This document shows positions 3,539-35,765 of a DNA stretch of 36,156 nucleotides, piece after piece. The stretch is taken from assembly GCA_013286655.1 (NCBI GenBank), contig JABDFG010000020.1, positions 1-36,156 on the forward strand, read 5' to 3'. Below the pieces are notes generated by a model. That model was given only the letters and a program-made list of their open reading frames with translations. It made no database searches and was not told the origin of the DNA. The DNA is from Bacteroidota bacterium. GTDB taxonomy: Bacteria; Bacteroidota; Bacteroidia; JABDFU01. Within the stretch, counting starts at the first letter, position 1; each line of letters opens with the position of its first letter. Both the position numbers and the translations under genes were made by a program.

Positions 3539-3978
3539 CTATTTCTAAGCAGTTCCTCACTAATGTTTTTTACAATCTCTACTAATTCGTAAAATCCGCA
3601 GGGTTTGGTAACGCACTTTGTTACCCCTAATCCGGATATGTATTTATGGTCTTCATTGGAAATCGTTGTGGAAAGAATAATGATATTAAGCTTTTCAAGG
3701 TCCGCATCCGATCTTATTTCTTTTAGAGCTACCCGACCGTCTTTGCGAGGCATATTGAGGTCCAGTAAAATGAGATCAGGTAGTTGATGGTTCTTTTCCG
3801 TACTAAAAGATTGCCGAAGATAAATCATTAGTTCTTCGCCATTCTTGACGAAATCAATCAAATGCCCGACTTCCGCCTCTTTAAAGGCTAGTCCAATCAG
3901 TTGTCTGTCGTCAACATCATCGTCAACAATTAGTATTCTCAATACTTTGTTTTTCTGCACTAATTTTTCTTTCATCAT
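3535..3978 (-). CDS. single-domain response regulator, Rcp1-like
   Basis: A 147-residue stand-alone receiver with no output domain. Seen: acidic cluster VDDDVDD near 18-24, phospho-acceptor D73 in LILLDLNMPRKDG, the switch Thr/Ser in LSTTIS, and K125 in VTKPCGF. The long alpha2-beta3 loop and the LDLNMPRKDG motif are typical of the Rcp1 class that partners phytochrome-type kinases. Its start overlaps the end of the upstream kinase gene (3923-5200) by 56 bp; a GTG at residue 7 would shorten this to 38 bp. The overlap argues that the kinase upstream is its partner (inference). Signal output must go through protein contact or a phosphorelay. Confidence 0.92.
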   Translation of the reverse strand: MMKEKLVQKNKVLRILIVDDDVDDRQLIGLAFKEAEVGHLIDFVKNGEELMIYLRQSFSTEKNHQLPDLILLDLNMPRKDGRVALKEIRSDADLEKLNIIILSTTISNEDHKYISGLGVTKCVTKPCGFYELVEIVKNISEELLRNS

Positions 3979-5200: not shown

Positions 5201-5206
5201 ATATCT

Positions 5207-11200: not shown

Positions 11201-11527
11201 GTTTAATGAATCAACACCGCTTCTCCAGGCCCCTCTTGCATTTGGAATTTCAAATCGCTGTGTCAGTTTCCCCTGTTTGCCGATCGTACTACCTGCTTTG
11301 GTAAATTCCAGCATCATTTTTTCATTCATCTCAATGATATCGTTCAGGGTGTCACATATTTTACCCGGAAGGCCTATCTGATCAATTGGCATTCTCACTG
11401 AAAAATTTCCATTCTTAACTTCGGATAAAACCTCAAATAGCAATTTGTTATCCACATAATCCAGCGGATTTAGTTTTTGTTCTCCGTTAAGTTTTTTGAG
11501 ATTTTTTTTCGACAAGGTGTTTTCCAT
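5207..11527 (-). CDS. giant soluble poly-HAMP hybrid histidine kinase (GAF, three receivers)
   Basis: A 2106-residue hybrid kinase with no membrane helix. Residues 1-215 hold divergent HAMP units; 216-1135 are ten 92-residue repeats, each pairing a HAMP of type [17 protein letters not shown] with a second of type [20 protein letters not shown]; 1136-1180 is a last HAMP. Then GAF (about 1200-1340), coiled coil (1345-1415), HisKA with H1426 ([12 protein letters not shown]), HATPase (DTGIG 1587, [10 protein letters not shown] 1616) and three receivers with D1767, D1889 and D2036. The second receiver carries LDYTLPDT and IMLKD in place of the usual K-P. The plan resembles fungal Nik1/Os-1 cytosolic kinases, which sense osmotic stress through HAMP arrays. 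Ligand and stimulus here are unknown. A stand-alone Hpt lies just upstream. Confidence 0.95.
8123..10882 (-). repeat. ten tandem 276-bp coding repeats (double-HAMP units)
   Basis: Ten head-to-tail units of exactly 276 bp (92 codons) fill 2760 bp of the giant kinase gene, with no indels between units at the protein level. The units nearest the N-terminus (high coordinates) are most alike; the last ones (low coordinates, beginning [23 protein letters not shown]) diverge most. This pattern suggests growth by unequal crossover in the N-terminal part. Synonymous differences between units indicate that the array is not a very recent single amplification. Confidence 0.93.
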
Positions 11528-11898
11528 AGGTGATTCTTATTTGGTATAAATCTTAGAAATTCCGCCTCTTTAAACAGATATACTCAACAATATAATAACA
11601 GATATAATAATGGTTGCACGAATTTGATAATTCTATCAAAAAGCTACCGGGTTTTTCGGTAAACTTTCTTTTTGTGTAGTTAAACTTCATCAAAATGAGG
11701 GTAAATATTTCAATCCGACCGCCGGATGGGACACAAAATCCTTGAAAAACACGCGTTTTTTTAATCTTGTTTTTAACCTGCTTTTTCGGGTATTCTGTCC
11801 ATTAATTGAATATGTTTATCGAAAATAATTACCCGGGCGCCGTCTGATCGTGTAGTTTAGCAGAACAAATAGTATAAATTGGTTTAAAAAAAGCACGT
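11528..11898. promoter_or_regulatory. intergenic region between giant kinase and small membrane peptide gene
   Basis: This 371-bp AT-rich gap separates divergent genes and should carry both promoters. Seen: the 10-bp direct repeat AACAGATATA at 11573-11582 and 11597-11606 (24 bp apart), and a perfect 7-bp inverted repeat TTTGATA (11623-11629) / TATCAAA (11634-11640) about 100 bp upstream of the kinase start. A weaker dyad TACCG/CGGTA is at 11645-11661. I found no clean TAnnTTTG box for the kinase. No other gene is evident. Confidence 0.4.
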
Positions 11899-12069
11899 AT
11901 GACGGTCAAGCTAATTATTGTTTTACTCTTCATAAGTTTCATACTCCTTATGGCTTTCTGGATCGTTCGGACGGAAGAGAAACCCAAAAGAAAATCAGGA
12001 TTTTCCGATCCTTCCAAATCCTATAAGAAAGCAATTGAAATGGGACTTAATGTTCCCAACAGAAATTAA
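11899..12069 (+). CDS. 56-residue single-pass membrane peptide
   Basis: A short frame encodes 56 residues: MTVKLIIVLLFISFILLMAF begins a single hydrophobic helix (about residues 4-22), followed by a strongly basic stretch (KPKRKSGF) and a hydrophilic tail ending GLNVPNRN. The composition is what a real single-pass inner-membrane peptide should look like, with the tail probably cytoplasmic. It is the only plus-strand gene inside the minus-strand signalling block, and its stop lies 6 bp from the convergent Hpt stop. I know no function; a link to kinase control is guesswork. The overlapping antisense frame at 11829-12017 is rejected. Confidence 0.6.
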   Translation: MTVKLIIVLLFISFILLMAFWIVRTEEKPKRKSGFSDPSKSYKKAIEMGLNVPNRN

Positions 12070-12075
12070 CGCCGA

Positions 12076-12435
12076 CTAAAAACTTTTTTTCTGTTCCTCT
12101 AATTCAACCATAGCTTTGTTGCAGAACGTTTTAACTTTAGAAATCATTTCAGGTAATAAATCGAAATGAATTTCCTTTTCGGCGTATTCTTCTATTAAAT
12201 TGATAACCGGAGTCAGTTCTTTTAATCCGACAAATGTGAAAGATGGTTTCATCTTATGAGCCACTGCTCTAAGCATCTTCCAGTTTTTATCCCCATAATA
12301 CTTTTCAAGGTTGCCTATTGCTTCAGGGGTTTGTTCCATAAATACAACGAGCATTTCTTTTATAAAAGCATTATCCCCCTTGGCTAATTCCTTTAAATAA
12401 GTAAGATCGGTTACATTGCTGTTTGTCGCTTCCAT
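12076..12435 (-). CDS. stand-alone histidine phosphotransfer (Hpt) protein
   Basis: A 119-residue all-helical protein with the Hpt signature: phospho-accepting H60 in RAVAHKMKPSFTFVG, preceded by a helix of type IKEMLVVFMEQTPEAI and followed by ELTPVINLIEEYAEK. Hpt proteins shuttle phosphoryl groups between the receiver of a hybrid kinase and a final receiver; they have no catalytic activity of their own. The gene lies 21 bp downstream of the REC-PAS-PAS hybrid kinase, which ends in a receiver, so that kinase is the likeliest donor. The giant three-receiver kinase just downstream could also use it. Confidence 0.9.
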   Translation of the reverse strand: MEATNSNVTDLTYLKELAKGDNAFIKEMLVVFMEQTPEAIGNLEKYYGDKNWKMLRAVAHKMKPSFTFVGLKELTPVINLIEEYAEKEIHFDLLPEMISKVKTFCNKAMVELEEQKKSF

Positions 12436-12456
12436 GTCCTTAAATAGTTATTTTGG

Positions 12457-14892
12457 TTAATTTTTCAAATAGTTGGTTTTCTTATGAACCGCAATAATTT
12501 TATTATACAATACCTGTTCCTCAAAAGGTTTGGACATATAATCGTTCATTCCGGCTTTAATACATTTTTCTTCTTCTCCTGATATCGCATGTGCTGTCAT
12601 TGCAATAATTGGAATATTACATTTGGGAAGAGGTAGTGTTTTTCTGATTTTCCCGGTTGCTTCATAGCCATCCATCTCGGGAAGCTGAATATCCATCAAT
12701 ACGAGGTCATAATTATTGTCTCTTACCTTTTGTACCGCGATCAATCCGTTCTCGGCGATTTCAACCTTCCATTTCCAATTTGTTATAACCTTTTTAGCTA
12801 ATAATTGATTCAGTGTATTGTCCTCCACCAATAAAATACTCAATTCTTCAGTGGGTGAGATGTCCGGCATACTTACCGGCAACTCTTTTTTCTGTTCCGT
12901 GACGTGACCGCTCTTTATGAACGTCAGATTAAAAATAAATACTGAACCAACGCCAACAGTACTTTCAACCTGTATAGATCCCCCCTGTAATTCAAGCAAT
13001 TGTTTAACAATCGTCAATCCCAGTCCGGTGCCACCGTATTTTCTGGTTGTTTCATTACTTGCCTGCGTGAAACCCTCAAATATATATTGCAGCTTGTCTT
13101 TAGGAATTCCAATACCCGTATCAGCAATCGAAAATTTCAATTCCAATGTATCGGTATTTTCTGCCACCAGATCTACTGTTATCTTAATTTCACCTTTTTC
13201 GGTAAACTTGATGGCATTTCCAATAAGATTTAATATTATTTGGCTCAGCCGTGTAGGATCACCCATTATCTGTTCAGGAACTTCTTTACTTATAACGTAA
13301 GAAATTTTGATGTCCTTTTGCCCTGTTTTATACAGCATCGAGTCAGAATGTTTGGCAATCAGACTATAAAGGTTGAATTCGATTTGTTCGAAGGTAATCT
13401 TGCCGGATTGAATTTTAGAAAAATCAAGGATATCATTAATAATTACAATAAGGTTTCTTCCGGAAGTTTTAATAGCATCAACATATTGATACTGATCGGC
13501 CGAAAGTTTTGTTTTTATAAGAAGGTCTGTAAATCCAATGATTGCATTCATGGGAGTCCGAATTTCATGGCTCATATTGGCAAGGAATTGTTCTTTTACT
13601 TTCATCGATTCCTCCAATTGCTTTTTAGCTTTCATCAGTTCCTCCAAGGCCTTATTTCCTTTCATCAGAGAGTGCTCGGCAATTTGGGTTGCCATAACAA
13701 GTTCCTCTTCCATCTGTTTCCGGAGTGTTATATCGGTATCAATTGCTATGATTCTTGCAATTTCTCCATTTTTGTCTAAAACAGGTGAAAGGGTAGTAAT
13801 GACCCAGTATTTTTCACCGTTCTTTGTGTAATTTTTTCTTTCATAAGAAACGGCTTTTTTATGAAAATCCGATTTGTTGAAACTTTCGTCCTTCGGAACT
13901 TTGGTTTCTCCGACTATTTCGAAAAGATTTTTCTCAATGGCCTTGATATCCTTTAAGGTATAGCCGCTCAGTTTAGTAAAGCCTTCATTTACCCACTCGA
14001 TTTCCCCCTCTCTATTTGCTATAATAACTGAATTAAAAGATTTGGTTGCAGCCGTAGCGAGCTTATCCAATTCCTCTTCGTTCATTCGTTCCGTAACATC
14101 CTGGCCGGTTCCGAGCATCATCGTTGGATTTCCTTTCTCGTCCTTGATAACCTCGCCTCTTGCATGAATAACCCTTGTGTCGTTGTTTGGACGTATAATC
14201 CGGTGATAAAAATTAAACGGAACCTGTAATTTATAGGATTCCTCAATTATGTTCTTTGTGAAATCCCTGTCTTCTATGTGCACCTGAGCCAGGAATGATT
14301 CATAAGTAGAATTGAACTCTCCTGACTTCAGGCCATAGATATCGTGGAGTTCGTCAGATAAGCTAATCGTATTGGTGCCAATATTCCATTCCCAGCTTCC
14401 GATATGAGCAAGCTTCTGAGCTTCCGAAAGCTTCCGTTTTTCTTTCAGCAGATCGTCCGTTTTTTCCTGGAGTTTTTTTGTTTTTTCGAAAAGCTCTTTC
14501 CGAAGTTTATTGCGTTCAATGCCATAATTGATGGAACGCCTCAGCCCTTTTGCTTTTACCTTTCCTTTGATGAGAAAATCCTGGGCTCCTAATTTCATGG
14601 CATTCAGCCCGACATTTTCATCCTCAACGCCTGTGAGAACAATGATCGGAGTGTCTGGTGTCTTTTCAAATATTTTTTTAAATGTATCCAGGCCAAAGCT
14701 ATCGGGTAATGTTAAGTCAACCAGGATAACGTCAAAGTCCCTTTGAGCGGCAAATTCCAACCCTAATTTTAAGTTATAAGCTGTTGTAAAGGTGTAGAGG
14801 CTATCGTCATAAGCTTCGCTTAAATAAATATCAATTAATCTGGCATCCGCCGGATTATCTTCGATCATTAATATATTAAACTTTTCTTCCAA
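12457..14892 (-). CDS. hybrid histidine kinase REC-PAS-PAS-HisKA-HATPase-REC
   Basis: An 811-residue soluble hybrid kinase. Order: REC 5-125 (D59 in VILVDLTLPD; K110 lies in LIKGK, without the usual proline), coiled coil 128-160, PAS1 about 163-272 (HIGSWEWN, ending GTGQDVTERM), PAS2 about 278-395 (YTLKDIKAIE, ending AIDTDITLRK), coiled coil 395-433, HisKA with H442 (ANMSHEIRTPMNAI), HATPase (N559 in LIGNAIKF, DTGIG 591-595, GGTGLGLTIV about 620) and C-terminal REC 684-800 (D734 in LVLMDIQLPEMDGY, K788 in YMSKPF). The class resembles BarA/ArcB-type phosphorelay kinases but lacks a membrane part and a fused Hpt; the Hpt is the next gene, 21 bp away. It follows the 407-residue kinase by 9 bp in the same operon. 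Confidence 0.94.
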   Translation of the reverse strand: MEEKFNILMIEDNPADARLIDIYLSEAYDDSLYTFTTAYNLKLGLEFAAQRDFDVILVDLTLPDSFGLDTFKKIFEKTPDTPIIVLTGVEDENVGLNAMKLGAQDFLIKGKVKAKGLRRSINYGIERNKLRKELFEKTKKLQEKTDDLLKEKRKLSEAQKLAHIGSWEWNIGTNTISLSDELHDIYGLKSGEFNSTYESFLAQVHIEDRDFTKNIIEESYKLQVPFNFYHRIIRPNNDTRVIHARGEVIKDEKGNPTMMLGTGQDVTERMNEEELDKLATAATKSFNSVIIANREGEIEWVNEGFTKLSGYTLKDIKAIEKNLFEIVGETKVPKDESFNKSDFHKKAVSYERKNYTKNGEKYWVITTLSPVLDKNGEIARIIAIDTDITLRKQMEEELVMATQIAEHSLMKGNKALEELMKAKKQLEESMKVKEQFLANMSHEIRTPMNAIIGFTDLLIKTKLSADQYQYVDAIKTSGRNLIVIINDILDFSKIQSGKITFEQIEFNLYSLIAKHSDSMLYKTGQKDIKISYVISKEVPEQIMGDPTRLSQIILNLIGNAIKFTEKGEIKITVDLVAENTDTLELKFSIADTGIGIPKDKLQYIFEGFTQASNETTRKYGGTGLGLTIVKQLLELQGGSIQVESTVGVGSVFIFNLTFIKSGHVTEQKKELPVSMPDISPTEELSILLVEDNTLNQLLAKKVITNWKWKVEIAENGLIAVQKVRDNNYDLVLMDIQLPEMDGYEATGKIRKTLPLPKCNIPIIAMTAHAISGEEEKCIKAGMNDYMSKPFEEQVLYNKIIAVHKKTNYLKN

Positions 14893-14901
14893 TGGAGTTT
14901 T

Positions 14902-16125
14902 TTATTTAGCGCCGGTTTCCAATTGATTAAGTGGGTCTTTAATTGTAAAAAAGAAAGAGGAACCTTTTCCAGGTTGAGATTCTATCCATATTTTCCCCCC
15001 ATGCCGTTCGACTATCTTCTTGCAAATAGCTAAACCAATACCTGTCCCGGGATATTTTTCTTTGCTGTTGAGTCGTTGAAAAATAACAAAAATTTTTTCA
15101 AAATATTCAGATTTAATTCCGATCCCGTTGTCTTTTATACAATATAGTGTCGCATTTGCTTCTTTTTTACTGCTGATGTGTATTTCCGGTTTTATGTCTC
15201 CCCTGAATTTAATCGCATTTCCTATTAAATTCAAGAACAACTGGCCAATCAGGACAGAATCGCCATATATTATATGCAGTTTATCACAGGTTATTAAGGG
15301 AGTACTTTCCTGAATGAGATCTTTCAGATCATGAATGATGAGTTCATTTATGAGCAGGTTAACATCTATGTTTTCAAAAGGTTTTATTCTACTTACGCGC
15401 GAATATTCCAGAAGGCTATTGATCAGATTTCGCATTCGGGCTGCACCATCAACCGCATAATGAATAAAATCGTCTGCATCCTTATCCAGTTTATTCTTGT
15501 ACCGTTTTTCAAGCAATTGCAGGTAGCTCGTTACCATTCTCAGGGGTTCCTGCAAATCGTGAGAAGCGACATAAGCAAATTGTTCTAATTCTTTATTTGA
15601 ACGGGTCAATTCCTGTGTTATTTCCACCAATTTGTCAGATCCGTTTAATTCTGTGGGTTTATGAAAAAAATCATTCTTCTCATTGTTACGAATTTCATAA
15701 AGAAGCTGCAGTGCTTTGTCTTCAACCTTCATGTAATAGTCCATCACTTCCCAAACAATACCCATTGCTTCTTTCAAGTCCTTCGTATAAACCGGAACAA
15801 ATTTCAGCAAGGCTTTTTTCCGAGAAGCATTTCCAAGAATGACATCGGATATATGAATAGTTTCCTTTGACAAGCCGGATGTTTTGTCTTGCTCCCATTG
15901 CTCTAAATTTTCTTTCAGGTATGCTATCGCTTGTCGCTCTCCCATGGACGTTAACATTTTTTCCATATGGCCTATTTCCCTCTCAAGGAGCTGATCTTCT
16001 GAAAAATGTGCAATAACTTTCAGGAATGGAGAACCCAATTGCCTGCCGATCCGAATATTTTCTATCGCCAAATCCCTAAGGTGATTTTCCTTCAGGTAAA
16101 GAGAAAAGTCCTGTATGTTCTTCAT
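14902..16125 (-). CDS. soluble histidine kinase, phytochrome-type core
   Basis: A 407-residue kinase without membrane helices. Residues 1-145 form an all-helical sensory region (RDLAIENIRIGRQLGSPFLK and onward) somewhat like the N-terminal domains of RsbR/RsbT regulators; this is a weak match. HisKA follows with H189 in YVASHDLQEPLRM, then HATPase with N303 (NLIGNAIKF), DNGIG at 332-336 and GTGIGLAICKK. The kinase core closely resembles that of the 541-residue kinase at 17447-19072 (shared HDLQEPLR, LLEKR-KNK, KIVERHGG), so the two are probably paralogues. It lies 14 bp after the single receiver at 16140-16598, its probable partner. Confidence 0.92.
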   Translation of the reverse strand: MKNIQDFSLYLKENHLRDLAIENIRIGRQLGSPFLKVIAHFSEDQLLEREIGHMEKMLTSMGERQAIAYLKENLEQWEQDKTSGLSKETIHISDVILGNASRKKALLKFVPVYTKDLKEAMGIVWEVMDYYMKVEDKALQLLYEIRNNEKNDFFHKPTELNGSDKLVEITQELTRSNKELEQFAYVASHDLQEPLRMVTSYLQLLEKRYKNKLDKDADDFIHYAVDGAARMRNLINSLLEYSRVSRIKPFENIDVNLLINELIIHDLKDLIQESTPLITCDKLHIIYGDSVLIGQLFLNLIGNAIKFRGDIKPEIHISSKKEANATLYCIKDNGIGIKSEYFEKIFVIFQRLNSKEKYPGTGIGLAICKKIVERHGGKIWIESQPGKGSSFFFTIKDPLNQLETGAK

Positions 16126-16139
16126 CTGTATTTAGAAGC

Positions 16140-16598
16140 TTAACTCTTCCTGTGATTTGGCAGTTTGACAACCATTAGCCAAAAATTTTCAATGGAGCGT
16201 ATAATGTTAGTAAACTGGTTAAAATCAACAGGTTTCATAATATAACAGTTGGCATGATGCGCATACATATTTAAAATATCCTGTTCTGCGGCAGAAGTGG
16301 TCAATACAATAACCGGAATAGTCATCAGGTCCGGGTCTGATTTAATTTCAAATAAAACCTCTCTTCCGTCCTTTTTCGGCAGATTGAGATCAAGCAAAAT
16401 AAGGTCGGGAACAGTAGCATTTGCGAACTTTTCTTGTTTTTTCAAAAAAGAAATAGCCTCTTCTCCATCTGTTACAACACTTAATGTATTGTAAATTTTT
16501 CCTTCTTTTAAAACCTCCCGTGTAAGCCTTACATCACCGGGATTGTCTTCCACCAATAAAATGTGAATGGGCTTCAATCTGTCTGGTGAATCGCTCAT
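16140..16598 (-). CDS. single-domain response regulator, Rcp1-like
   Basis: A 152-residue receiver without an output domain: acidic residues in LLVEDNPGD, acceptor D70 in [13 protein letters not shown], Thr/Ser of the switch in VLTTSAAE, and Lys in YIMKPVDF. It shares the long loop and LDL-x-P-KDG motif with the receiver at 3535-3978, so the two are same-class paralogues serving two kinases. It heads the minus-strand run receiver, kinase, hybrid kinase, Hpt with gaps of 14, 9 and 21 bp, which reads as one operon. Confidence 0.93.
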
Positions 16599-16696
16599 AT
16601 AGGCTCTCTGAAGGTTATGCTTTCCAATATACGATTGGTTAACAGAACCGGTTGGTTTTTTCGATGAACAAAGAATTATTGCAGGTAAACAATAAT

Positions 16697-17389
16697 TTAC
16701 AAAAGATTTAATCGTTTCGTCAGATTTTCCTTATACACGGCGCCGACCGGAATGAGTTTGCTGCCAATTACTATTACCGTGTCATCAATTGAATTAATCT
16801 TATCAAGAGATACGATATACGAACGATGAACCCTGATAAATTTATCCGCAGGGAGTTTTCCTTCAACTATTTTCATGGTTGTATGAATAATGTGTCTCTT
16901 GGTAGAAGTATTGATCGTTATATAATCGCCCAGCGCTTCGACCCATACAATCTCGTCGATGCCGATTTTTACCAGAGTGGAGTGACTTTTAATAAAAACA
17001 TAATCAATCCCGGAAGAGCTGATGGTTTGTTGTGAACTATCAAATATTTCTTTCGCCTTTGTAATTGATTTAACGAAACGATCAATACTCACCGGTTTAA
17101 TAATGAAATCAACGATATTATATTCATAGGACTCAAGTGCGTATTTCTTTTTAGAAGTAGCCAGAATTATAAGTGGTGGTTTTTTCAAATTTTTAATAAA
17201 TTCCAAACCCGTCATTTCCGGCATCTCTATGTCCAGCAATACCAGATCAACTTTTTCAGCATTTAAAAAATTCAAAGCTTCCACTGAACCAGAGCATACT
17301 TTAACAAGTGAAAGGGAGTTAACCTGTCCAACCAGCTTTGTTAAAGCCAGCCTTGACATTTCGTCGTCGTCAACTATTATACATTTCAT
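16697..17389 (-). CDS. LytTR-family DNA-binding response regulator
   Basis: The only classical transcriptional regulator in the signalling block: 230 residues with REC at 1-115 (IIVDDDE, D53 in [14 protein letters not shown]98 region FIIKPVS) and a LytTR DNA-binding domain at about 130-230 ([28 protein letters not shown]). LytTR regulators bind paired direct repeats, usually in promoters, as dimers. The gene lies 57 bp downstream of the membrane kinase at 17447-19072, which is therefore the probable partner. In Bacteroidota, LytTR regulators usually pair with His_kinase-family LytS-type enzymes, so pairing with a phytochrome-type kinase would be less common. Confidence 0.93.
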
Positions 17390-17446
17390 TTGTTTTTTTT
17401 TAACGCTTGATTACCGAATGGAACTATTCACATCCGGTTGGTTGGT

Positions 17447-19072
17447 TTATGATAATTTTGCGGGTATTGTAAAATAAAAAATGGACCCGGATTTTCCAGG
17501 TTCAACCCATATTCTGCCTCCATGGCGCTCTACTATTTTTTTACAGAGCGCAAGACCTATTCCGGTGCCAGCGTACTTTTCCCGGGTATGAAGTCTTTGA
17601 AAAATAACAAATATGCGCTCAGAATATTCTTTGGCTATTCCAATGCCATTGTCACTAACCGAAAATGTCCAGTTTCCTCTTGTCTTATGAGCGGAAACTT
17701 TAATTTCAGGAGCTTCATCATTGCGCCTGTATTTTATGGCATTTTCAATCAAATTTTGAAATAACTGAATTATTTGCGACTGATCCGCCATAATAACGGG
17801 CATCGGATTTTCTAAAATCACCTGAGCTTTACATTCACGTATCGTATTATCCAGGTTGTTCAAAACAATCGTCATGACTTTCGTGCAATCAACGTTATCA
17901 AAAACCTTCGTATTAGTCCCTATACGTGAATAAGTCAACAGGTCATTAATAAGAATATGCATTCTTTTTGCCCCGTCGACCGCAAAGTTAATAAACTCAT
18001 CTGCTTCCTTGTCAAATTTGTTTTTAAATCGTTTCTCTAACAGTTGCAAGTAACTTACAATGGTACGAAGTGGTTCCTGCAAATCGTGAGATGAAATATA
18101 GGCGAATTGCTCCAGGTCTGCATTGGAACGGGCGAGATCTTTTGCCTGTTTTTCAAAAGCGTCTTTGGCTGCTTTCAATTTTTCTTCTGCTTCTTTTTGT
18201 TCTGCCAGCATCCGTTCCAGACTGTTGATCATCGTATTGAATGAGGCGGCCAAAATTCCGATTTCATCTTCCGAATACTTTTTTGCCCGGTCGCTAAAAT
18301 CGGCTTTTGCAACTTTGGCAGAAACACGCATGACCTCATTAATACCTTTGGAAATTCCAACGCTTACTGAAATGGTGAGAAATAAACCCGTGAATTCTAC
18401 TGTTAACGCAATGATAAATAGTAGTTTCAAGATCAGTTTTTCAAGCCACCTGGAGCCTTCTCCCAGCGTATAGGAAAACCGATCTTCGACAACCGTTAAT
18501 TGTCGGTTCAGAAGGTCAACTTTATCCAGCGTTGCGTTAATATTCTCCCTGGATTCAGTTAAAGAAAGTACCTGTTGATGAAGTTTAAAACCAACATCCT
18601 GTAATTGTGTCATTAAAGAATCGCCTTCTGTCCAGTAAACAATTGCTTTGCTGATATAAGATATACCGGAAAATCTTCTGAGTAATTTTATAGTTCCTTC
18701 AATATCGTCTTTGTGAATGCGACCTTCGATAAATCCCTGCCGTACCGTGCTTAAATCGGGATTCTGTTTCAGAAGTTCATGCCGGGCCTTGGAATCGCCT
18801 AAGGGAACTTTCAGCGAATGCAGGTATTCCAGATAATCGTTTTCGTTTTTTCCGAGGCCGTATTTTTGCAAATAATAAGAAGCATTCTTTTGTGCTTTTG
18901 ACCAGAGTCCTTCCGCCCCAACCAGTGTTCTTGTGGAAGAAAGCGTATGCATGGTAAATACCAGCATAAGTAATTCAAACGCAATTAACAGGGCCATTAT
19001 CCCTAACATAAAGTACAATTTCTTGGCGATTGATACATCGCGGATCCATTTTAGAAGAAAGAAATTACTCAT
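17447..19072 (-). CDS. membrane histidine kinase with periplasmic sensor, HAMP and HisKA
   Basis: The only clearly membrane-spanning kinase here, 541 residues. TM1 about 19-40, a mostly helical periplasmic sensor 41-212 of four-helix or CHASE3-like type (family not certain), TM2 213-237, HAMP 238-290, coiled coil 285-318, HisKA with H329 in YISSHDLQEPLRT, HATPase with N-box LIENAIKY, DNGIG, and GTGIGLALCKK. It is divergent from the five-receiver run starting at 19260, with 187 bp between. The downstream LytTR regulator and the neighbouring stand-alone receivers are candidate phospho-acceptors (inference). Confidence 0.93.
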   Translation of the reverse strand: MSNFFLLKWIRDVSIAKKLYFMLGIMALLIAFELLMLVFTMHTLSSTRTLVGAEGLWSKAQKNASYYLQKYGLGKNENDYLEYLHSLKVPLGDSKARHELLKQNPDLSTVRQGFIEGRIHKDDIEGTIKLLRRFSGISYISKAIVYWTEGDSLMTQLQDVGFKLHQQVLSLTESRENINATLDKVDLLNRQLTVVEDRFSYTLGEGSRWLEKLILKLLFIIALTVEFTGLFLTISVSVGISKGINEVMRVSAKVAKADFSDRAKKYSEDEIGILAASFNTMINSLERMLAEQKEAEEKLKAAKDAFEKQAKDLARSNADLEQFAYISSHDLQEPLRTIVSYLQLLEKRFKNKFDKEADEFINFAVDGAKRMHILINDLLTYSRIGTNTKVFDNVDCTKVMTIVLNNLDNTIRECKAQVILENPMPVIMADQSQIIQLFQNLIENAIKYRRNDEAPEIKVSAHKTRGNWTFSVSDNGIGIAKEYSERIFVIFQRLHTREKYAGTGIGLALCKKIVERHGGRIWVEPGKSGSIFYFTIPAKLS

Positions 19073-19259
19073 GTTTAAGAAGCTTCGTATTTATTGAGTT
19101 TTCAAATGTAGATTTAGAATTTATGAAAAACAAGGAATGTTTCCACCCTGATTTGATTACGTTTGCCGATAAATGTGACCCGTTGACCGAAATCTTTCAT
19201 TTCTGCTTATCTCCAAGCGTTAAATTGTCAAACGAGCTACTTAACTTAAAAAGGCTTTT

Positions 19260-19778
19260 ATGGAACCTAAAAAAGATAAACTGATATTCCTCGTGGATGA
19301 TGATAAAATGTTTCTCAAAACCATGGAACTGTATATCCGTCAGTTTTTTAACAATTATACGATACGAACATTTTACACCGGGGAGGAATGCCTGAATTCC
19401 ATTCATCAAAAACCTGATATTGTACTGTTGGATTATATGTTGAACGGGAATTACCCTGATGCGATGGACGGAATCAAAGTCCTGATCCAGATCAAAAAAA
19501 CGAATCCCGAGATTACCGTTATTATGTTTTCAGCTCAGGATCATATTGATATAGCTGTAGATACTATGAAACATGGTGCATTCGACTACATTGTTAAGAA
19601 TGATAAGATGTTTTTGCGTGTGCAGAACGCAATCAAAAATGTCATCTATAATTTAGTGCTGAAGCAAGATATGAAAGAATACAAACGCAAAATGCGTTTA
19701 CTGGGTATACTTATTGCCGTAATAATCGGCGCCCTGGTTTATGTTAGTATATTTTGCCGTTCGTTCTTACAGGTTTAA
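19260..19778 (+). CDS. membrane-anchored stand-alone receiver (REC-TM)
   Basis: A 172-residue protein: receiver at 6-128 and a C-terminal hydrophobic helix at about 146-166 (LLGILIAVIIGALVYVSIFC), preceded by a basic segment (KEYKRKMR) that should keep the receiver in the cytoplasm. Acidic residues LVDDD and acceptor D58 (IVLLDYMLNG) are present. It differs from ordinary receivers in two ways: the loop after D58 (NGNYPDAMDG) is about five residues longer and lacks the usual M-P, and the usual K-P is K113-N114. It is the first gene of a five-receiver run. No output domain; possibly a membrane-local phosphate sink or a localisation switch. Confidence 0.9.
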   Translation: MEPKKDKLIFLVDDDKMFLKTMELYIRQFFNNYTIRTFYTGEECLNSIHQKPDIVLLDYMLNGNYPDAMDGIKVLIQIKKTNPEITVIMFSAQDHIDIAVDTMKHGAFDYIVKNDKMFLRVQNAIKNVIYNLVLKQDMKEYKRKMRLLGILIAVIIGALVYVSIFCRSFLQV

Positions 19779-19801
19779 TGGTTAACAAATCGGCATTGGG
19801 C

Positions 19802-20170
19802 ATGAAGATAATGGTTGTGGACGACGATGAAATCATGTTGAATGCTTTATACCTCTGTCTTACCAGGGCGGGTTATCAAACGGTAACGGTAACAGATGGG
19901 ATTAAGGCATTGGAAATATTCAATGCCGGTAAAAATTTTGACTTAATAATAAGTGATATTATGATGCCCGGTCTCTCTGGATTTACGCTGTTAGATACCA
20001 TCAGGAATATGGCCAAGGACTCTGTTCCTGTGATTTTGATATCTTCACTTGACAAAGCGAAGACAATCTCTTCGAGGCTTGATTTGAAAGCAGATGATAT
20101 TATCGTTAAACCGATTGATTTTGATAAGTTACTTTTAAAAATTTCGAGCCTATTGGGGCTATCTAATTAA
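19802..20170 (+). CDS. single-domain response regulator
   Basis: A stand-alone receiver with standard motifs: IMVVDDDE, acceptor Asp in LIISDIMMPGLSG, ISSLDKA and IVKPIDF. I place the start at the ATG at 19802 because this gives 122 residues, the same length as the close paralogue at 21196-21564, and begins right at the first beta strand. Earlier in-frame starts exist: ATG at 19778, touching the previous stop (TAATG), and a TTG at 19754. Soluble, no output domain. It sits between the two membrane-anchored receivers. Confidence 0.9.
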   Translation: MKIMVVDDDEIMLNALYLCLTRAGYQTVTVTDGIKALEIFNAGKNFDLIISDIMMPGLSGFTLLDTIRNMAKDSVPVILISSLDKAKTISSRLDLKADDIIVKPIDFDKLLLKISSLLGLSN

Positions 20171-20247
20171 TTCGTACTTCACTTTCCAGTGTTCATCGAA
20201 AAATTCAGAGGTTAGTGTAATATAGATTGTAACTTAGAAAAAAAAGC

Positions 20248-20754
20248 ATGAAAACTTTAAGAGATGTTGTGATTTTTCTGGTGGATGATGACAAGCTTTT
20301 TTTAAAGTCTCTGGAGTATCATTTGCAGCATAGACTGAAGTATACTATTAAAATAAGGTCTTTTCCTACCGGGGAGGAATGTTTAAACAATCTCCATCAA
20401 AATCCGACGATTGTCGTTCTCGATTATTTGTTAAATGCAAATTACCCCGATGCTATGAATGGAGTGCAGGTATTGCAAAAAATAAAAGAAACAAATCCGG
20501 AAATTGAAGTAATTATGTTGTCGGGTCACGAAAAGGTTGAAGTGGCGCTTGAAACAATGAAATATGGGGCGTATGATTACGTATTAAAAAATGAAACGGT
20601 ATTATTGAAAATTCAATCGGTCATCAGAAATGCTATCGATTCCATTGCAGTTAAAAGACAAGTAAAGACCTATAAGCTTTTGATGCAGATAATTGGCGGA
20701 ATTGCGCTGGTCATTCTGCTGATTGTGCTCGTTAAACGAATGTTTTTGCACTGA
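20248..20754 (+). CDS. membrane-anchored stand-alone receiver (REC-TM), paralogue of 19260-19778
   Basis: A 168-residue protein with the same plan as the gene at 19260: receiver 6-130 and C-terminal helix about 145-163 (QIIGGIALVILLIVLV) flanked by basic residues. Acceptor D59 in IVVLDYLLNANYPDAMNG carries the same long loop, and the usual K-P is K-N (YVLKNE). Shared stretches such as TGEECLNN.H and NYPDAM show that the two genes arose by duplication. The 77-bp gap before it may hold a promoter, but I see no clear box. Confidence 0.9.
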   Translation: MKTLRDVVIFLVDDDKLFLKSLEYHLQHRLKYTIKIRSFPTGEECLNNLHQNPTIVVLDYLLNANYPDAMNGVQVLQKIKETNPEIEVIMLSGHEKVEVALETMKYGAYDYVLKNETVLLKIQSVIRNAIDSIAVKRQVKTYKLLMQIIGGIALVILLIVLVKRMFLH

Positions 20755-20777
20755 CGAATTCATAAAAACGGGAAATC

Positions 20778-21185
20778 ATGGAAACTTCAGAAAAAAAACT
20801 TGTTTTTATAGTGGACGATGATCCTCTGTATTCAAAGGTGATGAGTGAGTTTTTTACAAAAGAAATTCCTCACCTGGAAGTAAAGCTATTCAGTACGGGA
20901 GAAGCCTGCTTGCATGAAATGTATTTGAACCCGGTGGCTGTCATTCTTGATTACTATCTGGACTCGGAATTTGAGTATGCCTGGAACGGCATACAGATTT
21001 TGAAAAAAATACTTCTTGCTTATCCATCATCTAATATTATTATAATCTCTGCTCAGGAAAATATGGAAACTGCACTTAACTGTGTTAAACAAGGTGCTCT
21101 GGAGTATGTTATAAAAAATGAGAAAGCACTTTGGGCGATTAAAAAAACCTTGTTGGATGTAATTGATGATACTGTTGAATATTAA
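20778..21185 (+). CDS. atypical single-domain receiver, soluble relative of the REC-TM pair
   Basis: A 135-residue receiver related to the two REC-TM proteins (VDDDPLYSK, STGEACLHEM) but ending after the receiver fold, without a membrane helix. Acceptor D58 lies in AVILDYYLDSEFEYAWNG, again with the long loop, and the usual K-P is K-N (YVIKNE). It follows the second REC-TM gene by 23 bp. It may have lost its anchor or represent the ancestral soluble form. Confidence 0.9.
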   Translation: METSEKKLVFIVDDDPLYSKVMSEFFTKEIPHLEVKLFSTGEACLHEMYLNPVAVILDYYLDSEFEYAWNGIQILKKILLAYPSSNIIIISAQENMETALNCVKQGALEYVIKNEKALWAIKKTLLDVIDDTVEY

Positions 21186-21195
21186 ATAATAGGTT

Positions 21196-21564
21196 ATGCA
21201 AGTATTAGTTGTTGATGATGATAAATTGCTTCTAAAAGCAATTGCTCAATGTTTGGAATCGAACAGTATGGGCGTTATTTCGGCGGAAAATGGCCTGCAG
21301 GCTATGGATGCTTTGGAAAAGCATAAGCCCGACTTGATTATCTGCGATGTCATGATGCCTGGTTTTTCCGGTCTGGGTCTGTTAAGTTTGTTAAATAATT
21401 TTTACCTGAATAAAATTCCCATCATTATTATTTCTTCGCTTGATAAAGCTGACGTAATAGCCTCTTCTAAAAAATTGGGTGCGGTGGATTATATAACTAA
21501 GCCAATCAATTTCGAATACCTTATAAATTTGGTGAAACGCTATCTTCCTGCTGAGTCTAGTTAG
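21196..21564 (+). CDS. single-domain response regulator, paralogue of 19802-20170
   Basis: A 122-residue receiver with canonical motifs: VLVVDDDKLLLKAI, acceptor Asp in LIICDVMMPGFSG, ISSLDKADVI and YITKPINF. Shared segments (VDDD, MMPG-SG, ISSLDKA) make it a paralogue of the receiver at 19802. The gap to the previous gene is 10 bp. The run therefore alternates two receiver classes: long-loop (19260, 20248, 20778) and canonical (19802, 21196). The stop codon lies inside the palindromic repeat region starting at 21550. Confidence 0.92.
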   Translation: MQVLVVDDDKLLLKAIAQCLESNSMGVISAENGLQAMDALEKHKPDLIICDVMMPGFSGLGLLSLLNNFYLNKIPIIIISSLDKADVIASSKKLGAVDYITKPINFEYLINLVKRYLPAESS

Positions 21565-31782: not shown

Positions 31783-31810
31783 CAAAAGCCCTTCTTATGA
31801 AGGGCTTTTG
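31783..31810. terminator. hairpin terminator beside the left attachment copy
   Basis: CAAAAGCCCTTC (31783-31794), loop TTAT, GAAGGGCTTTTG (31799-31810) is a perfect 12-bp stem with A/T flanks, able to work on both strands. Read on the minus strand it follows the duplicated tRNA-Val 3' end, so it is probably the tRNA's original terminator, parted from the gene by the insertion. Confidence 0.75.
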
Positions 31811-31818
31811 TTTTAACC

Positions 31819-31841
31819 GTGGGAGCACATGGATTCGAACC
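31819..31841 (-). repeat. attachment-site copy, tRNA-Val 3' fragment
   Basis: Identical over 23 bp to the 3' end of tRNA-Val at 35690-35712 (T-arm 3' half plus acceptor strand). Homology stops at GAACC, beyond which the sequence (TTGCCACC) is unrelated to the tRNA. This is therefore a tRNA fragment and not a gene. Confidence 0.85.
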
Positions 31842-31968
31842 TTGCCACCACCTGCTAAACCTTCAAAATTTGCGAAATTTCGCATACAAAACTGTTCATT
31901 TTTTGACATTTCTGAGCAATACCTGACTCAAAAACCTGACTCAGGAACCTGACTCTGAGGGTTCTTTT
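31842..31968. other. left end region of the element
   Basis: No gene. Besides the repeats at 31921-31956 it holds a perfect 14-bp palindrome TGCGAAATTTCGCA (31871-31884), about 30 bp inside the attachment copy. A palindrome and repeat cluster so close to the junction suits recombinase or directionality-factor binding. Confidence 0.45.
31921..31956 (+). repeat. three tandem repeats ACCTGACTCA, 13-bp spacing (left end)
   Basis: ACCTGACTCA at 31921-31930 and 31934-31943, and ACCTGACTCT at 31947-31956, spaced exactly 13 bp apart. The same core occurs at the other end of the element (35611-35633) in the same orientation and spacing. The place, form and spacing suit integrase arm-type binding sites. 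Confidence 0.75.
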
Positions 31969-33039
31969 TCAATGAAGTTTTAGCAGCTTTAAAGTATGGT
32001 GCCAATAAAAAAGAGAACCTCCTGGTGTATTCTTCAATTTGTTCAGTTTGTTGTGCTCCGGATTGGAAATCGAATATTCTCCAAGATTTATGGAGGTATC
32101 GAATTTCAATAATTCCCTGCTATCTGTTTTTATAATAGCAGCAAGATACGCTGCTTTTGCAGATGCTGTTATTGCCTCATCAATGCGGAAGGGGGCGGTG
32201 AAAATATAGGATTTAATCTCCTCCAGGCCTTGTGCTATTTCCGGAAATTTTGTTTTGCCTGCATCATGGGGATGACTGCCTCTTAAAGCAATAATTTGTG
32301 CTGTTGAAATGGTATCATCCAACACCTTTTCAATGGTGATCTTCTTTTCAGCTCTGTATCCCATTTCCTGGCTGGCAATTCTGTCAAATGCCTTTTTAAT
32401 GGTTTCTACCTTACGAACTAAATCAAATAATGTCCCTATATCAAAAAGCTGTTTGACTATTTCCATTTCTTTTTTCCGGCCATACAATATACCAATGGTT
32501 TCTGGAGCAAATGCTGTCAGTTTATCTCCTGTTATAGAATCAATGCTCGGTATTTTTACCAATGTGGCGATACTATTTGTTTTTAACCAGGCAGATTGAA
32601 TTTTTCCATCAATCAGCTCAGGGTAACTATGCTTCTCGTAAAGGACATCGAGCATAATGTCCTTTTCTTTGCCTTCGGTTTTTGAAAAGAAAAATAAATG
32701 ATAATGCGCCTTTGGAATCCCCGGTTTGTAACTTCTGTTATCGTCAAGCGACCATTTTGTAAAAATGCCCTTGGTAATTATTTCGTTTAAAATGCTTTCA
32801 ATTTTTTTCCGGCTTTCAAGGGTAACGATATCCACATCAACTGAAAACCGCCGGGGTTCTGGCAACAGCAAAAAGAGACATGTCCCGCCTTTGAAAACAA
32901 AATCCAGTTTTGCAATCGAAAGCTGCTCAACCAGTGATAAAGCATAAATAACTTTCTCAATTATGCCCGGGTCAGCTTTTGCATGATTTGCCCGTATTGA
33001 GTTAATCCACTCAGCTGTATAGGTTTCTTCCTGAATCAT
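31969..33039 (-). CDS. AbiEii-type nucleotidyltransferase toxin
   Basis: A 356-residue protein of the AbiEii/MenA-like nucleotidyltransferase toxin family, the toxin part of type IV toxin-antitoxin or abortive-infection pairs; related toxins inactivate tRNAs or otherwise halt growth. Seen: LDFVFKGGTCLFLLL (GG at 51-52) and RRFSVDVDI with D68 and D70 as the metal-binding pair, followed by a helical C-terminal half. The family is recognised from this motif set; the exact target is unknown. Its start overlaps the end of the AbiEi-like gene by 4 bp, the usual tight coupling in such pairs. Confidence 0.85.
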   Translation of the reverse strand: MIQEETYTAEWINSIRANHAKADPGIIEKVIYALSLVEQLSIAKLDFVFKGGTCLFLLLPEPRRFSVDVDIVTLESRKKIESILNEIITKGIFTKWSLDDNRSYKPGIPKAHYHLFFFSKTEGKEKDIMLDVLYEKHSYPELIDGKIQSAWLKTNSIATLVKIPSIDSITGDKLTAFAPETIGILYGRKKEMEIVKQLFDIGTLFDLVRKVETIKKAFDRIASQEMGYRAEKKITIEKVLDDTISTAQIIALRGSHPHDAGKTKFPEIAQGLEEIKSYIFTAPFRIDEAITASAKAAYLAAIIKTDSRELLKFDTSINLGEYSISNPEHNKLNKLKNTPGGSLFYWHHTLKLLKLH

Positions 33040-33785
33040 TTCAGTATGTTGCCGGGAATTGTTGTATTAGCTTTCATGAATTCAATAATTTCCTTCTTTT
33101 TACCTCTGCGCCAGGCATAGGTTAGTAAGGTAGAAAAATTAATATCATATTTTTCAAATGCAGTATTAAAAATATTCTTTAGTTCTCCTGTGAATCCGCT
33201 AAAAATGAATTGCTCGCAAAAGATATCTACCAATATCTTTTCCAGTTTCGGAACTATCATTTTATTTAGCTGTTGCAGAGGAGACTTAGTCAGCAGGCGC
33301 TGAACAATAAGCGTTTCAGGGTACTGGTATACATATTGGCGCATTACATTTTCATCCGGCTGCAAAAAAGCATTATTATACCCCTTGTCTCTTAGATAAT
33401 AAAAGACCGATTCTGCCGCGTCTTTTTCTACTTCAATGATAATAAGGAAACGCCCGCTCTGGTGGACCATAAAATCATTCATCCATCGGGTATTCCACAT
33501 GCATACTTTTAAATACGGATAGTTCGCTGTTATCTGTTTATGTATTTTTTCTAATTCCTTTTCATCCGGAGGATGAAAGAGGACTTTATTCGAAAGTGAG
33601 TACACGCCTCGTCCGATGGCCCTTAAAAGACCTTGCTGTTTCAAATGATATATTCTCCAACCAAATGTTCCTTTGTTTATATCCGGATCAGATTTTTTAA
33701 AAAAGGAAAGGAGGTCCTTCCGGTTAAAGCTGTTCTTGCCAGAAAACTCTCTTTTTAATACTGATATGTCGAATACTCCGGCCAA
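33036..33785 (-). CDS. AbiEi-like antitoxin/transcriptional regulator
   Basis: A 249-residue protein placed directly upstream of the AbiEii-type toxin with a 4-bp overlap. The N-terminus is a predicted winged helix (SFNRKDLLSFFKK, TFGWRIYHLKQQGLLRAIGR, GVYSL), the usual AbiEi arrangement. The rest resembles the AbiEi C-domain in layout (KVCMWNTRWMNDFM, EVEKDAAESVFYYL). In known AbiE systems the antitoxin neutralises the toxin and represses its own promoter at inverted repeats; palindromes are present upstream (33834-33857, 33888-33917, 34009-34039). Confidence 0.8.
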   Translation of the reverse strand: MAGVFDISVLKREFSGKNSFNRKDLLSFFKKSDPDINKGTFGWRIYHLKQQGLLRAIGRGVYSLSNKVLFHPPDEKELEKIHKQITANYPYLKVCMWNTRWMNDFMVHQSGRFLIIIEVEKDAAESVFYYLRDKGYNNAFLQPDENVMRQYVYQYPETLIVQRLLTKSPLQQLNKMIVPKLEKILVDIFCEQFIFSGFTGELKNIFNTAFEKYDINFSTLLTYAWRRGKKKEIIEFMKANTTIPGNILK

Positions 33786-33825
33786 TTTTTTTGTTTAATG
33801 CGTGTGTAAATATAAGAATTAAAAT

Positions 33826-33857
33826 CAAAATTAAGACAATAAGTGTATTTATTGTCT
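33826..33857 (-). promoter_or_regulatory. candidate promoter and operator of the AbiE-like pair
   Basis: On the minus strand TAATTTTG (33826-33833 on plus as CAAAATTA) matches TAnnTTTG, about 40 bp before the antitoxin ATG. Directly upstream lies a perfect 9-bp inverted repeat AGACAATAA (33834-33842) / TTATTGTCT (33849-33857) with a 6-bp spacer. A repressor bound there would cover the promoter spacer, as expected for autoregulation. Confidence 0.5.
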
Positions 33858-33887
33858 ATTATTTGAATAGCTATTTATTCTATATAA

Positions 33888-33917
33888 TTGTCACAAAAAT
33901 GCAAATATTTGTGACAA
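33888..33917. promoter_or_regulatory. palindrome TTGTCACAAA-N10-TTTGTGACAA
   Basis: A perfect 10-bp inverted repeat (33888-33897 and 33908-33917). It shares the core plan TGTCrCA ... TGyGACA with the dyad at 34009-34039, with almost the same spacing (14 and 15 bp between 7-bp cores). Two like dyads upstream of a toxin-antitoxin promoter suggest operator sites. Confidence 0.5.
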
Positions 33918-34008
33918 AAGTAAAGGGAAATTCAGCGAGCCCTGCACGCAATTATTATTATTTTAAATATTTAAATATCAATTAGTTATATTAAATTATT
34001 GGAGAATT

Positions 34009-34039
34009 ATGTCGCATATTTAGGAAATATTTGCGACAT
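34009..34039. promoter_or_regulatory. palindrome ATGTCGCA-N15-TGCGACAT
   Basis: A perfect 8-bp inverted repeat (34009-34016 and 34032-34039), related in core and spacing to the dyad at 33888-33917 and 122 bp away. On the plus strand TTTTT overlaps its end, so a terminator is an alternative, but nothing known is transcribed toward it on plus. Confidence 0.45.
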
Positions 34040-34051
34040 TTTTGGGTAGAA

Positions 34052-34824
34052 TTAAATCAATTGCTCTTCCAACATATCTTTCCAAATTATAAAACCTTTT
34101 CGATCCTCAGAATAATCATGAACAATTCGGCTGAAATTACCAGTCTGTATTTCCATGTATTGCTGCCGGCCTTTTGCCCTTATTGTCCCAAGGTCAGCAT
34201 CTATTTGTTTTAATTTGGCTTTCAGGGATGCAATTTTCTTGTCAATGTGCCAGATAAATGTTGCTTCTTCGGTATCAAGGGTCTCCCAAACTATGTGAAA
34301 TTGCTGTTTACCGCTGAGCAGAAAGACAAAAGAAAAAGGAGTTAAAACAAACCGCAATTTCAGGATTTTGCTTTCATGTTTTTTTGAAAGATAGACCAGT
34401 TGCCGGTAATGTTTTACGTTCTTATTTTTTAAAATGTCGTCCAGTAATTCATTTTCGGAGCCGTAAAGAGGATTGTTTTGTTCATTTGCCTGCATTTGTT
34501 TAATATCAAGCATGTTTTCCTCTCCAAAAGGCGTTTTCCCAATAATGCCTTTGGTAACGAACTGAAATTTAACGCTGTCAATTATATCTCTGTTGATTTT
34601 CCCTATGTCATGTGAAGTGGCTGAATGAATTACCGGCACCCCATTTGAAAGCGAGCTAAGACATCAACTTTCACCTTTTTAGTTTTCAGGATTTTTGAAA
34701 AATAAGGTTTAAGAACATTGAATTCCGGACGCATTTCAGCATTCTCCATTTCAAATTCCTGTTCTGTATTTATCTGCGGGATCAGGTGCCTAAATGCAAC
34801 GGCTCCAAACCGGAACTCAAGCAT
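34052..34824 (-). pseudogene. hypothetical protein gene split by a -1 frameshift
   Basis: Two minus-strand frames read as one protein. The first (34824 down to 34630) begins MLEFRFGAVAFRHLIPQINT and ends FQMG then CR-stop; the second (34639 to 34052, from a weak GTG) continues VPVIHSATSHDIGKINRDII and runs 195 residues. Joining them at the four-G run (plus-strand CCCC, 34639-34642) with a one-base slip gives a smooth protein of about 255 residues. Loss of one G is the simplest cause; programmed slippage or a sequencing error is possible. I do not recognise the family. It lies between the AbiE-like operon and the integrase remnant. Confidence 0.6.
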
Positions 34825-34877
34825 GTCTATTGGAATGTTAATGCGTTGCTCATAGGTGAAAGTATTTGAATTCTTAG

Positions 34878-35608
34878 GTGACGATGCAGGAATTTTATGG
34901 GATGTTGAGACTTATTACAAATGAAAATGGCAGTTTTTATGAAAAGAATGGGAAAAAAAGGTCTCTATTCAGAACCTGGATGATCAATGCTTTTAAGCTT
35001 GGTCTGTTTACCGGCGGAAGAGGTGAGGAGGTAGCTCAGATGAAATGGTGCCATATCGTATCGTTCATGCTTTTGATGGAGACATGAGCTATATCGACGT
35101 TAACCATTTTAAAATAAACAGGGCCAACAGTGGAAATATTTCTGAGGAGGAATATGAGGTAAAGAAAGTTTCGATAAACCCGGATTTTAAGGAATTGCTT
35201 ATCGAAATGGGCTACCACGAAAAAAGAGGGCTGGACGAGTTTATTTTAGCTCCTGAAGAAACCTGCACGAGAAAACAGCTTATGCGAATTGTTTCAGATG
35301 CATTTACTCACTTTTATAAGATGCTCAATACCGGCGATGTGAAAAATTTCAAACATTTACGAAAAACCTATGTTACGGAAATGGTTGTTCTTTTAGGAAA
35401 AGATGCTCCGGCTGCAACAAAACAGAGGCTTGATACAATCATGAAACATTACTATGCCGAGGCAAGAATGATGGAGGTGCTTCATGAGCATTTCAAGGCG
35501 TTGGGTAAAATATTTGATGATAAATCGGTTCAGCCTGCAGTCGAAAATGAAGAAGGTGAAAACAAAAAAGAGAAGAAAAAAAAGTCGGTAAAGAAGAAGA
35601 AAAAGTAA
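34878..35608 (+). pseudogene. tyrosine recombinase (integrase) remnant, 5'-truncated and frameshifted
   Basis: The first frame (34878-35087) holds the start of a tyrosine recombinase catalytic domain, with the first catalytic Arg in LFTGGRGEEVAQMKW. The second (about 35045-35608) continues with FDGDMSYIDVNHFKINR, a K-x-x-R form of the usual H-x-x-R box (NFKHLRKTYVTEMV), and KHYYAEARMM with the probable Tyr. The frames join by one lost base between about 35041 and 35075. The N-terminal arm- and core-binding domains (normally 150-200 residues) are absent. The frame ends in a poly-Lys tail of unclear meaning. Its place beside the attachment site fits the integrase of this element. Confidence 0.75.
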
Positions 35609-35610
35609 AT

Positions 35611-35633
35611 ACCTGACTCAGAAACCTGACTCA
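35611..35633 (+). repeat. two tandem repeats ACCTGACTCA, 13-bp spacing (right end)
   Basis: ACCTGACTCA at 35611-35620 and 35624-35633, starting 3 bp after the integrase stop. They match the left-end copies (31921-31956) in sequence, spacing and orientation. Confidence 0.75.
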
Positions 35634-35649
35634 GATTTTCCAAACCATG

Positions 35650-35686
35650 AAAAAAGCCCTTAATTTCAAAAATTAAGGGCTTTTTT
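35650..35686. terminator. 17-bp hairpin, bidirectional terminator
   Basis: AAAAAAGCCCTTAATTT (35650-35666), loop CAA, AAATTAAGGGCTTTTTT (35670-35686): a perfect 17-bp stem with a T-run on both strands. It separates the plus-strand integrase remnant from the convergent minus-strand tRNA-Val and should end both. Confidence 0.85.
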
Positions 35687-35690
35687 GTTG

Positions 35691-35765
35691 TGGGAGCACA
35701 TGGATTCGAACCAAGGACCCTCTGCTTGTAAGGCAGATGCTCTAAACCAGCTGAGCTATGCTCCC
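35691..35765 (-). tRNA. tRNA-Val (anticodon TAC)
   Basis: The minus strand reads as a 75-nt cloverleaf: acceptor GGGAGCA/TGCTCCC with discriminator A, D-arm GCTC...GAGC, anticodon stem TCTGC/GCAGA with loop CTTACAA (anticodon TAC, valine GTA codons), 5-nt variable loop, and T-loop TTCGAAT. The T-stem CTTGG/CCATG has one T-T mismatch. CCA is not encoded. The 3' 22 bases belong to the duplicated attachment sequence. Confidence 0.93.

Follow-up and report, generated by a model that had tools for sequence, protein, structure and literature searches.

Genes and borders of the tRNA-Val locus

The window analyzed here is a whole contig of 36,156 bp (JABDFG010000020.1; C20) from the Bacteroidia assembly GCA_013286655.1 (G000), which is multi-contig and incomplete (72.6% complete) and of which genome-wide searches covered 2.6 Mb. 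Its subject is a putative integrative island of 3.87 kb at an intact tRNA-Val(TAC) gene, the sole tRNA gene of the window. The island is bounded by two exact 23-bp repeats, the right one being the 3′ end of the tRNA gene itself, so that a direct repeat of the tRNA 3′ end is found at both borders and the tRNA is restored. Between the repeats lie an AbiEi/AbiEii operon, which is intact, and two broken genes, one hypothetical and one for a tyrosine integrase (Table 1). The initial annotation had described exact tRNA-Val 3′-end copies around about 3.9 kb, with an AbiEi/AbiEii-type pair, one broken hypothetical gene and one broken integrase as contents, and with a terminator hairpin kept beside the tRNA 3′ sequence at both junctions. 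The identity of the two repeats, a check of each gene, and the fold scores all agree with this description and with the claim that AbiE is the only intact cargo, both of its genes being full length and the other two genes broken.

Table 1. Features of the tRNA-Val island and its borders, in window coordinates.
Feature	Position	Strand	Remarks
Terminator hairpin beyond the left end; presumably served tRNA-Val before the insertion displaced it	31787..31816	.	fold -22 kcal/mol, z -5.8 to -6.6
Left attachment-site copy, 23 bp, equal to tRNA-Val 3′ end	31819..31841	-	homologous island DNA follows in G002, intact tRNA in G004
Conserved island left end	31842..31942	.	including the 23-bp copy, 78% identity over 124 bp to G002:C123 (E 1.5e-23)
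Predicted arm-type repeats, left end, three ACCTGACTC units, 13-bp period	31918..31957	+	
abiEii toxin gene, intact, 356 aa (amino acids), hGGx15DhD motif	31969..33039	-	Pfam PF08843 5.5e-17; PADLOC AbiEii 1e-124
abiEi antitoxin gene, DUF6577, 249 aa	33036..33785	-	DUF6577 7e-73; PADLOC AbiEi 7e-85
Candidate AbiEi operator palindrome, AGACAATAA-6-TTATTGTCT	33834..33857	.	equivalent palindrome upstream of G004 abiEi
Second palindrome upstream of abiE, TTGTCACAAA-10-TTTGTGACAA	33888..33917	.	
Third palindrome, ATGTCGCA-15-TGCGACAT	34009..34039	.	
Broken hypothetical gene, frameshift near 34635, 5′ end lost	34052..34824	-	intact 302-aa homologue in G031
Tyrosine integrase remnant, N-terminal part gone, frameshift near 35055, catalytic His replaced	34872..35608	+	
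Predicted arm-type repeats, right end, two ACCTGACTC units	35608..35634	+	
Island-borne bidirectional terminator hairpin between integrase and tRNA	35650..35686	.	17-bp perfect arms; z -4.3 and -5.5
Right attachment-site copy forming the tRNA 3′ end	35690..35712	-	
tRNA-Val (TAC), intact, integration target	35690..35765	-	

The hairpins adjoin both tRNA-derived copies (fold z -4.3 to -6.6). Because the integrase gene converges on the tRNA, the bidirectional terminator at the right junction would shield the two from each other. T-run hairpins are likewise present between tRNA and integrase in 7 of the 11 related integrase loci checked, and strong hairpins adjoin tRNA-Val itself in G005 and G003.

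Arm-type repeats at the island ends

Just inside both 23-bp copies lie direct repeats of ACCTGACTC with a 13-bp period, which the initial annotation had missed. The spaced pair CTGACTC-N6-CTGACTC has three matches in the window and none in 100 shuffles, and a search of the 2.6 Mb of G000 found no ACCTGACTC arm-type repeats outside the two island ends. In lambda-like integration, the attachment site of a tyrosine integrase is laid out with its core between arm-type sites. By its repeats, the island-end layout is the one expected of such a site, with the 23-bp core and flanking arm-type sites, and the ACCTGACTC repeats would be the arm sites bound by the integrase.

Empty and occupied tRNA-Val sites

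Comparison with congeners fixes the left border of the island. In G004 (L027), tRNA-Val follows a block of folC, a yceH-like gene and a lipoprotein gene, and the single 23-bp copy lies within the intact tRNA, which makes this an empty site, though the left-neighbor gene differs from that of the window. In G002 (L024), the lipoprotein gene and the spacer can be aligned to G004 as far as the end of the 23 bp, beyond which the DNA is homologous to the left end of the window island, with a core-to-arm spacing of 80 bp in both. It is this alignment, followed by island DNA in G002, that sets the border. A search of genome contigs for the exact island-end pattern returned the G002 record only. The initial annotation had reasoned that a 23-bp fragment at 31819 in genomes without the element would speak against an insertion. 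No such fragment is seen in G001, which shares the left-neighbor gene of the window yet has neither the 23-bp copy nor a tRNA-Val behind it in the stretch read, so that this objection does not arise. The proposed integration at tRNA-Val is upheld, for G004 has the site empty, G002 has it occupied, and G001 lacks the fragment behind the same left-flank gene. tRNA-Val is a recurrent target (hotspot) in this genus.

Other DNA beside tRNA-Val was also observed. The tRNA-Val of G005 carries a different element, at L101 (C126) 189-1626 and L028 (C87) 6190-6336, with a 48-bp copy of the tRNA end, TGTGTAACCC repeats at both ends, and an intact integrase of 407 aa (Arm-DNA-bind_5, SAM_5, Phage_integrase). 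Outside this element is another end-like stretch with TTGTACCC repeats and a hairpin, which suggests tandem elements. In G003 (L025 8507-8660), tRNA-Val is followed by a strong hairpin and AAGTCAGGTATTT, like the right end of the window island, with no integrase after them; this is possibly a remnant.

The integrase remnant and its relatives

The integrase survives in two frames, in which 34872-35054 and 35063-35515 correspond to residues 219-279 and 281-432 of the 434-aa relative in G192. About 218 N-terminal residues are gone, the frameshift follows the box of the catalytic Arg, and the family-invariant H401 is lost (TGH to TKQ). With this truncation, frameshift, and loss of the catalytic His, no functional integrase is left, and the window element thus appears to be a remnant of a tRNA-targeting tyrosine-recombinase island and not an active member. 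The hypothetical gene, which is 43% identical to the G031 protein over the C-terminal part, loses its start near 34870-34905, where the integrase remnant begins. One deletion between the two head-to-head genes would explain the truncation of both.

The integrase family is assigned to the tyrosine recombinases through PF00589, found in 13 of 13 members, with lambda integrase among the matches in the PDB; R268, K297, R380, H401, and Y411 are invariant. It is present in 22 other Bacteroidia genomes of the 395 searched, mostly beside a tRNA or tmRNA (transfer-messenger RNA) gene. Three relatives have readable ends and an open integrase gene. The closest by integrase (44%), G192, has an island of about 26 kb between 24-bp tRNA-Leu repeats, with cyclases of a cyclic-oligonucleotide-based antiphage signaling system (CBASS) and their 4TM effector, as well as an IetA-like gene. 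The G173 island lies at tRNA-Asn between 40-bp direct repeats, spans about 35 kb, and encodes a MobA-type relaxase. At tRNA-Met, G224 carries an island of 11.9 kb between 32-bp direct repeats, with a serine recombinase and a weak TrwB-like match. These islands share with that of the window the integrase family, a gene converging on the tRNA 3′ end, and direct repeats, but they differ in their complete integrases, their size (12-35 kb), and their tRNA targets, and their cargo is larger (CBASS, IetA, relaxase, coupling-protein-like).

A further candidate for an intact relative, G381, was rejected, as only an integrase remnant is present there and chromosome-like genes intervene. An AbiEi_2/AbiEii pair was noted there (L066 13987-16147) just inside the distal 26-bp copy of the tmRNA end, beside three GGTTAAGGAATT direct repeats.

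The AbiE operon

The AbiEi and AbiEii genes form one operon with a 4-bp start overlap (ATGA). In the AbiEii translation, GGTCLFLLLPEPRRFSVDVD holds GGx15DVD with the motif-II arginine, in keeping with the published definition of nucleotidyltransferase motifs I and II, hG[G/S]x15DhD (PMC3985639); the match to the motif IV pentad (+DxxD) is inexact. The pair thus resembles the AbiE type IV toxin-antitoxin systems in its bicistronic antitoxin-toxin operon, its hGGx15DhD nucleotidyltransferase toxin, and the inverted repeats upstream of the antitoxin (PMC3985639; PMC7319586). It differs from those described in that its antitoxin belongs to the DUF6577 branch, and in the sequence and spacing of the inverted repeats.

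The palindrome nearest the antitoxin gene, which precedes the listed start of abiEi by about 50 bp, is a likely operator, because AbiEi proteins autoregulate through upstream inverted repeats (PMC7319586). Upstream of abiEi, over some 200 bp (33834-34039), there are three separate palindromes, and every one of them contains a TGTC/GACA-like half site.

Of the AbiE homologues, the nearest one found sits at a different locus in G004, with 77% amino acid identity for AbiEii and 55-58% for the antitoxin. The changes between the two pairs fall mostly at third codon positions; this comparison is by codon-position counts only, the ratio of nonsynonymous to synonymous substitution rates (dN/dS) being saturated at synonymous sites. 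The G004 locus (L029 8189-14645), which is away from tRNA-Val, contains two AbiE-type pairs, AbiEi_2/AbiEii and DUF6577/AbiEii (the closest to that of the window), and these surround IS66-type genes and a resolvase-like open reading frame.

A possibly exchangeable pair beside the left end

In G002, the slot beside the conserved left end is occupied by PDC-M21A/B, a pair of nucleotidyltransferase and helix-turn-helix (HTH) genes that PADLOC lists as a candidate system (2e-50 and 5e-54). As in the window, the nucleotidyltransferase gene is nearest the end and both genes are transcribed toward it. Both loci therefore present a two-gene module of an HTH protein and an AbiEii or AbiEii-like nucleotidyltransferase, in the same order and direction from the left end, but tblastn detects no homology between the two pairs. 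An exchangeable defense pair at a conserved island end has been found in two genomes so far. It is conceivable, if rather doubtful, that they represent a family of small tRNA-Val islands, within this genus, whose conserved left end (attachment core and arm repeats) adjoins a cassette slot for an interchangeable HTH and nucleotidyltransferase pair. Such a family, with AbiE in one species and PDC-M21 in another, would be undescribed.

Origin of the island

The reading preferred here, to which we assign a probability of roughly 0.86, is that the element is the remnant of a tRNA-Val(TAC) island that integrated through the 23-bp core with ACCTGACTC arm sites and then decayed, with AbiE probably still functional. 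A tyrosine-recombinase island would have entered the 3′ end of tRNA-Val(TAC) through this core, exchanging the tRNA 3′ end for an identical copy and bringing along a bidirectional terminator that came to stand where the tRNA and the integrase gene converge. What were originally the tail and terminator of the tRNA would now lie at 31787-31841. A later deletion may have cost the integrase its first half and the neighboring hypothetical gene its start, with frameshifts following, and the loss of the integrase would have fixed the island in place; this order of events is a suggested one. The AbiE operon is probably the remaining functional part. AbiEi would repress its own promoter via the upstream palindromes and neutralize AbiEii, while the predicted nucleotidyltransferase toxin would act on phage infection and penalize loss of the locus, giving anti-phage or addiction activity.

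Several points weigh against this history. The exact left flank of the window (folC, outer-membrane gene, tRNA-Val) with an empty site was not found among the congeners; G004 has a different gene as left neighbor, and the flank is shared by G001, where the stretch read contains no tRNA-Val. Nor can the insertion be attributed with certainty to the decayed integrase, the activity of AbiE is a predicted one, and the assembly is incomplete and multi-contig.

The alternatives differ in how the element moved and in when AbiE arrived. The initial annotation had suggested that the element may be a satellite-like carrier relying on an integrase encoded elsewhere. Spelled out, this would be a minimal and still mobile defense element of attachment sites, arm sites, and AbiE, moved in trans by the integrase of a full-sized relative. 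Both attachment-site copies and all arm repeats are indeed intact while the integrase is broken, G002 has a sibling whose end is the same but whose cargo differs, and E. coli has defense islands without known mobility partners (PMC10121019). However, the remnant occupies the standard place and orientation of its family and is flanked by its own arm sites, which indicates that the element formerly encoded an integrase itself, and no other integrase of this family, as a helper would require, was found in the assembled 72.6% of G000 or in the assembled parts of five congeners. Furthermore, the 3.9 kb contain none of the packaging, capsid-redirection, or replication genes of phage satellites such as phage-inducible chromosomal islands (PICI) or P4-like elements, and no phage or mobilization gene was identified. 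No relative was found among viral contigs, by end pattern or by integrase. AbiEii has a single match in a phage collection (36% over 67% of its length); neither AbiE nor the hypothetical gene matches any PHROG, and the integrase has one weak match of unknown function. The small size is better explained by internal deletion than by a satellite nature, because relatives with an open integrase span about 12, 26, and 35 kb. The satellite proposal is therefore not sustained and is judged improbable. The idea that the 23-bp fragment at 31819 is a stray piece of tRNA, arising by chance or as a duplication artifact, draws on the similar AAAGCCCTT hairpins on both sides, which can mislead; it is in practice refuted by the arm repeats at both ends, the integrase remnant, the empty site in G004, and the occupied site in G002.

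A history compatible with the decayed-island reading is that AbiE was added later, or replaced an earlier pair, in the left-end slot, and so has a history separate from that of the integrase-bearing island. The unrelated pair in that slot in G002 points this way, as does the location of the nearest AbiE homologue at another G004 locus, beside IS66-type and resolvase genes. Against it, neither scars of insertion sequences nor target duplications came to notice around 31960-34040, and a swap could equally have occurred by recombination between islands before integration; a late arrival is judged possible but on the unlikely side.

Defense islands that encode only an integrase for mobility have been surveyed in E. 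coli, where they occupy tRNA genes and other hotspots (PMC10121019). The window island resembles them in its small size, in a hotspot shared by several element types, and in combining defense genes with an integrase and no phage or conjugation genes. It is unlike them in its Bacteroidia host, its broken integrase, its length of 3.9 kb, and its clear arm-type repeats, which have been kept.

Other features of the window

Just past the tRNA, at the contig end, 35928-36134 (-) encodes a 68-aa peptide with a class I lanthipeptide leader (NF038153, 5.9e-11). Judging from translations only, a dense run of two-component genes with several lone response regulators extends over 3535-21564, and within it a hybrid histidine kinase of 2106 aa with many near-identical internal repeats is encoded at 5207-11527.

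Implications

The island is mostly ordinary in type, and taken alone it leaves current views of AbiE and of tRNA islands as they are. As a compact and clearly delimited case, it illustrates how a defense module may become fixed in a chromosome, with AbiE left in place after an island has inserted into a tRNA gene and its integrase has been lost. Its most interesting feature is the exchangeable defense pair beside the conserved island end. G000, G002, and G004 offer a single site in occupied, re-stocked, and empty form, so that the exchange of cargo beside an attachment site can be tested.

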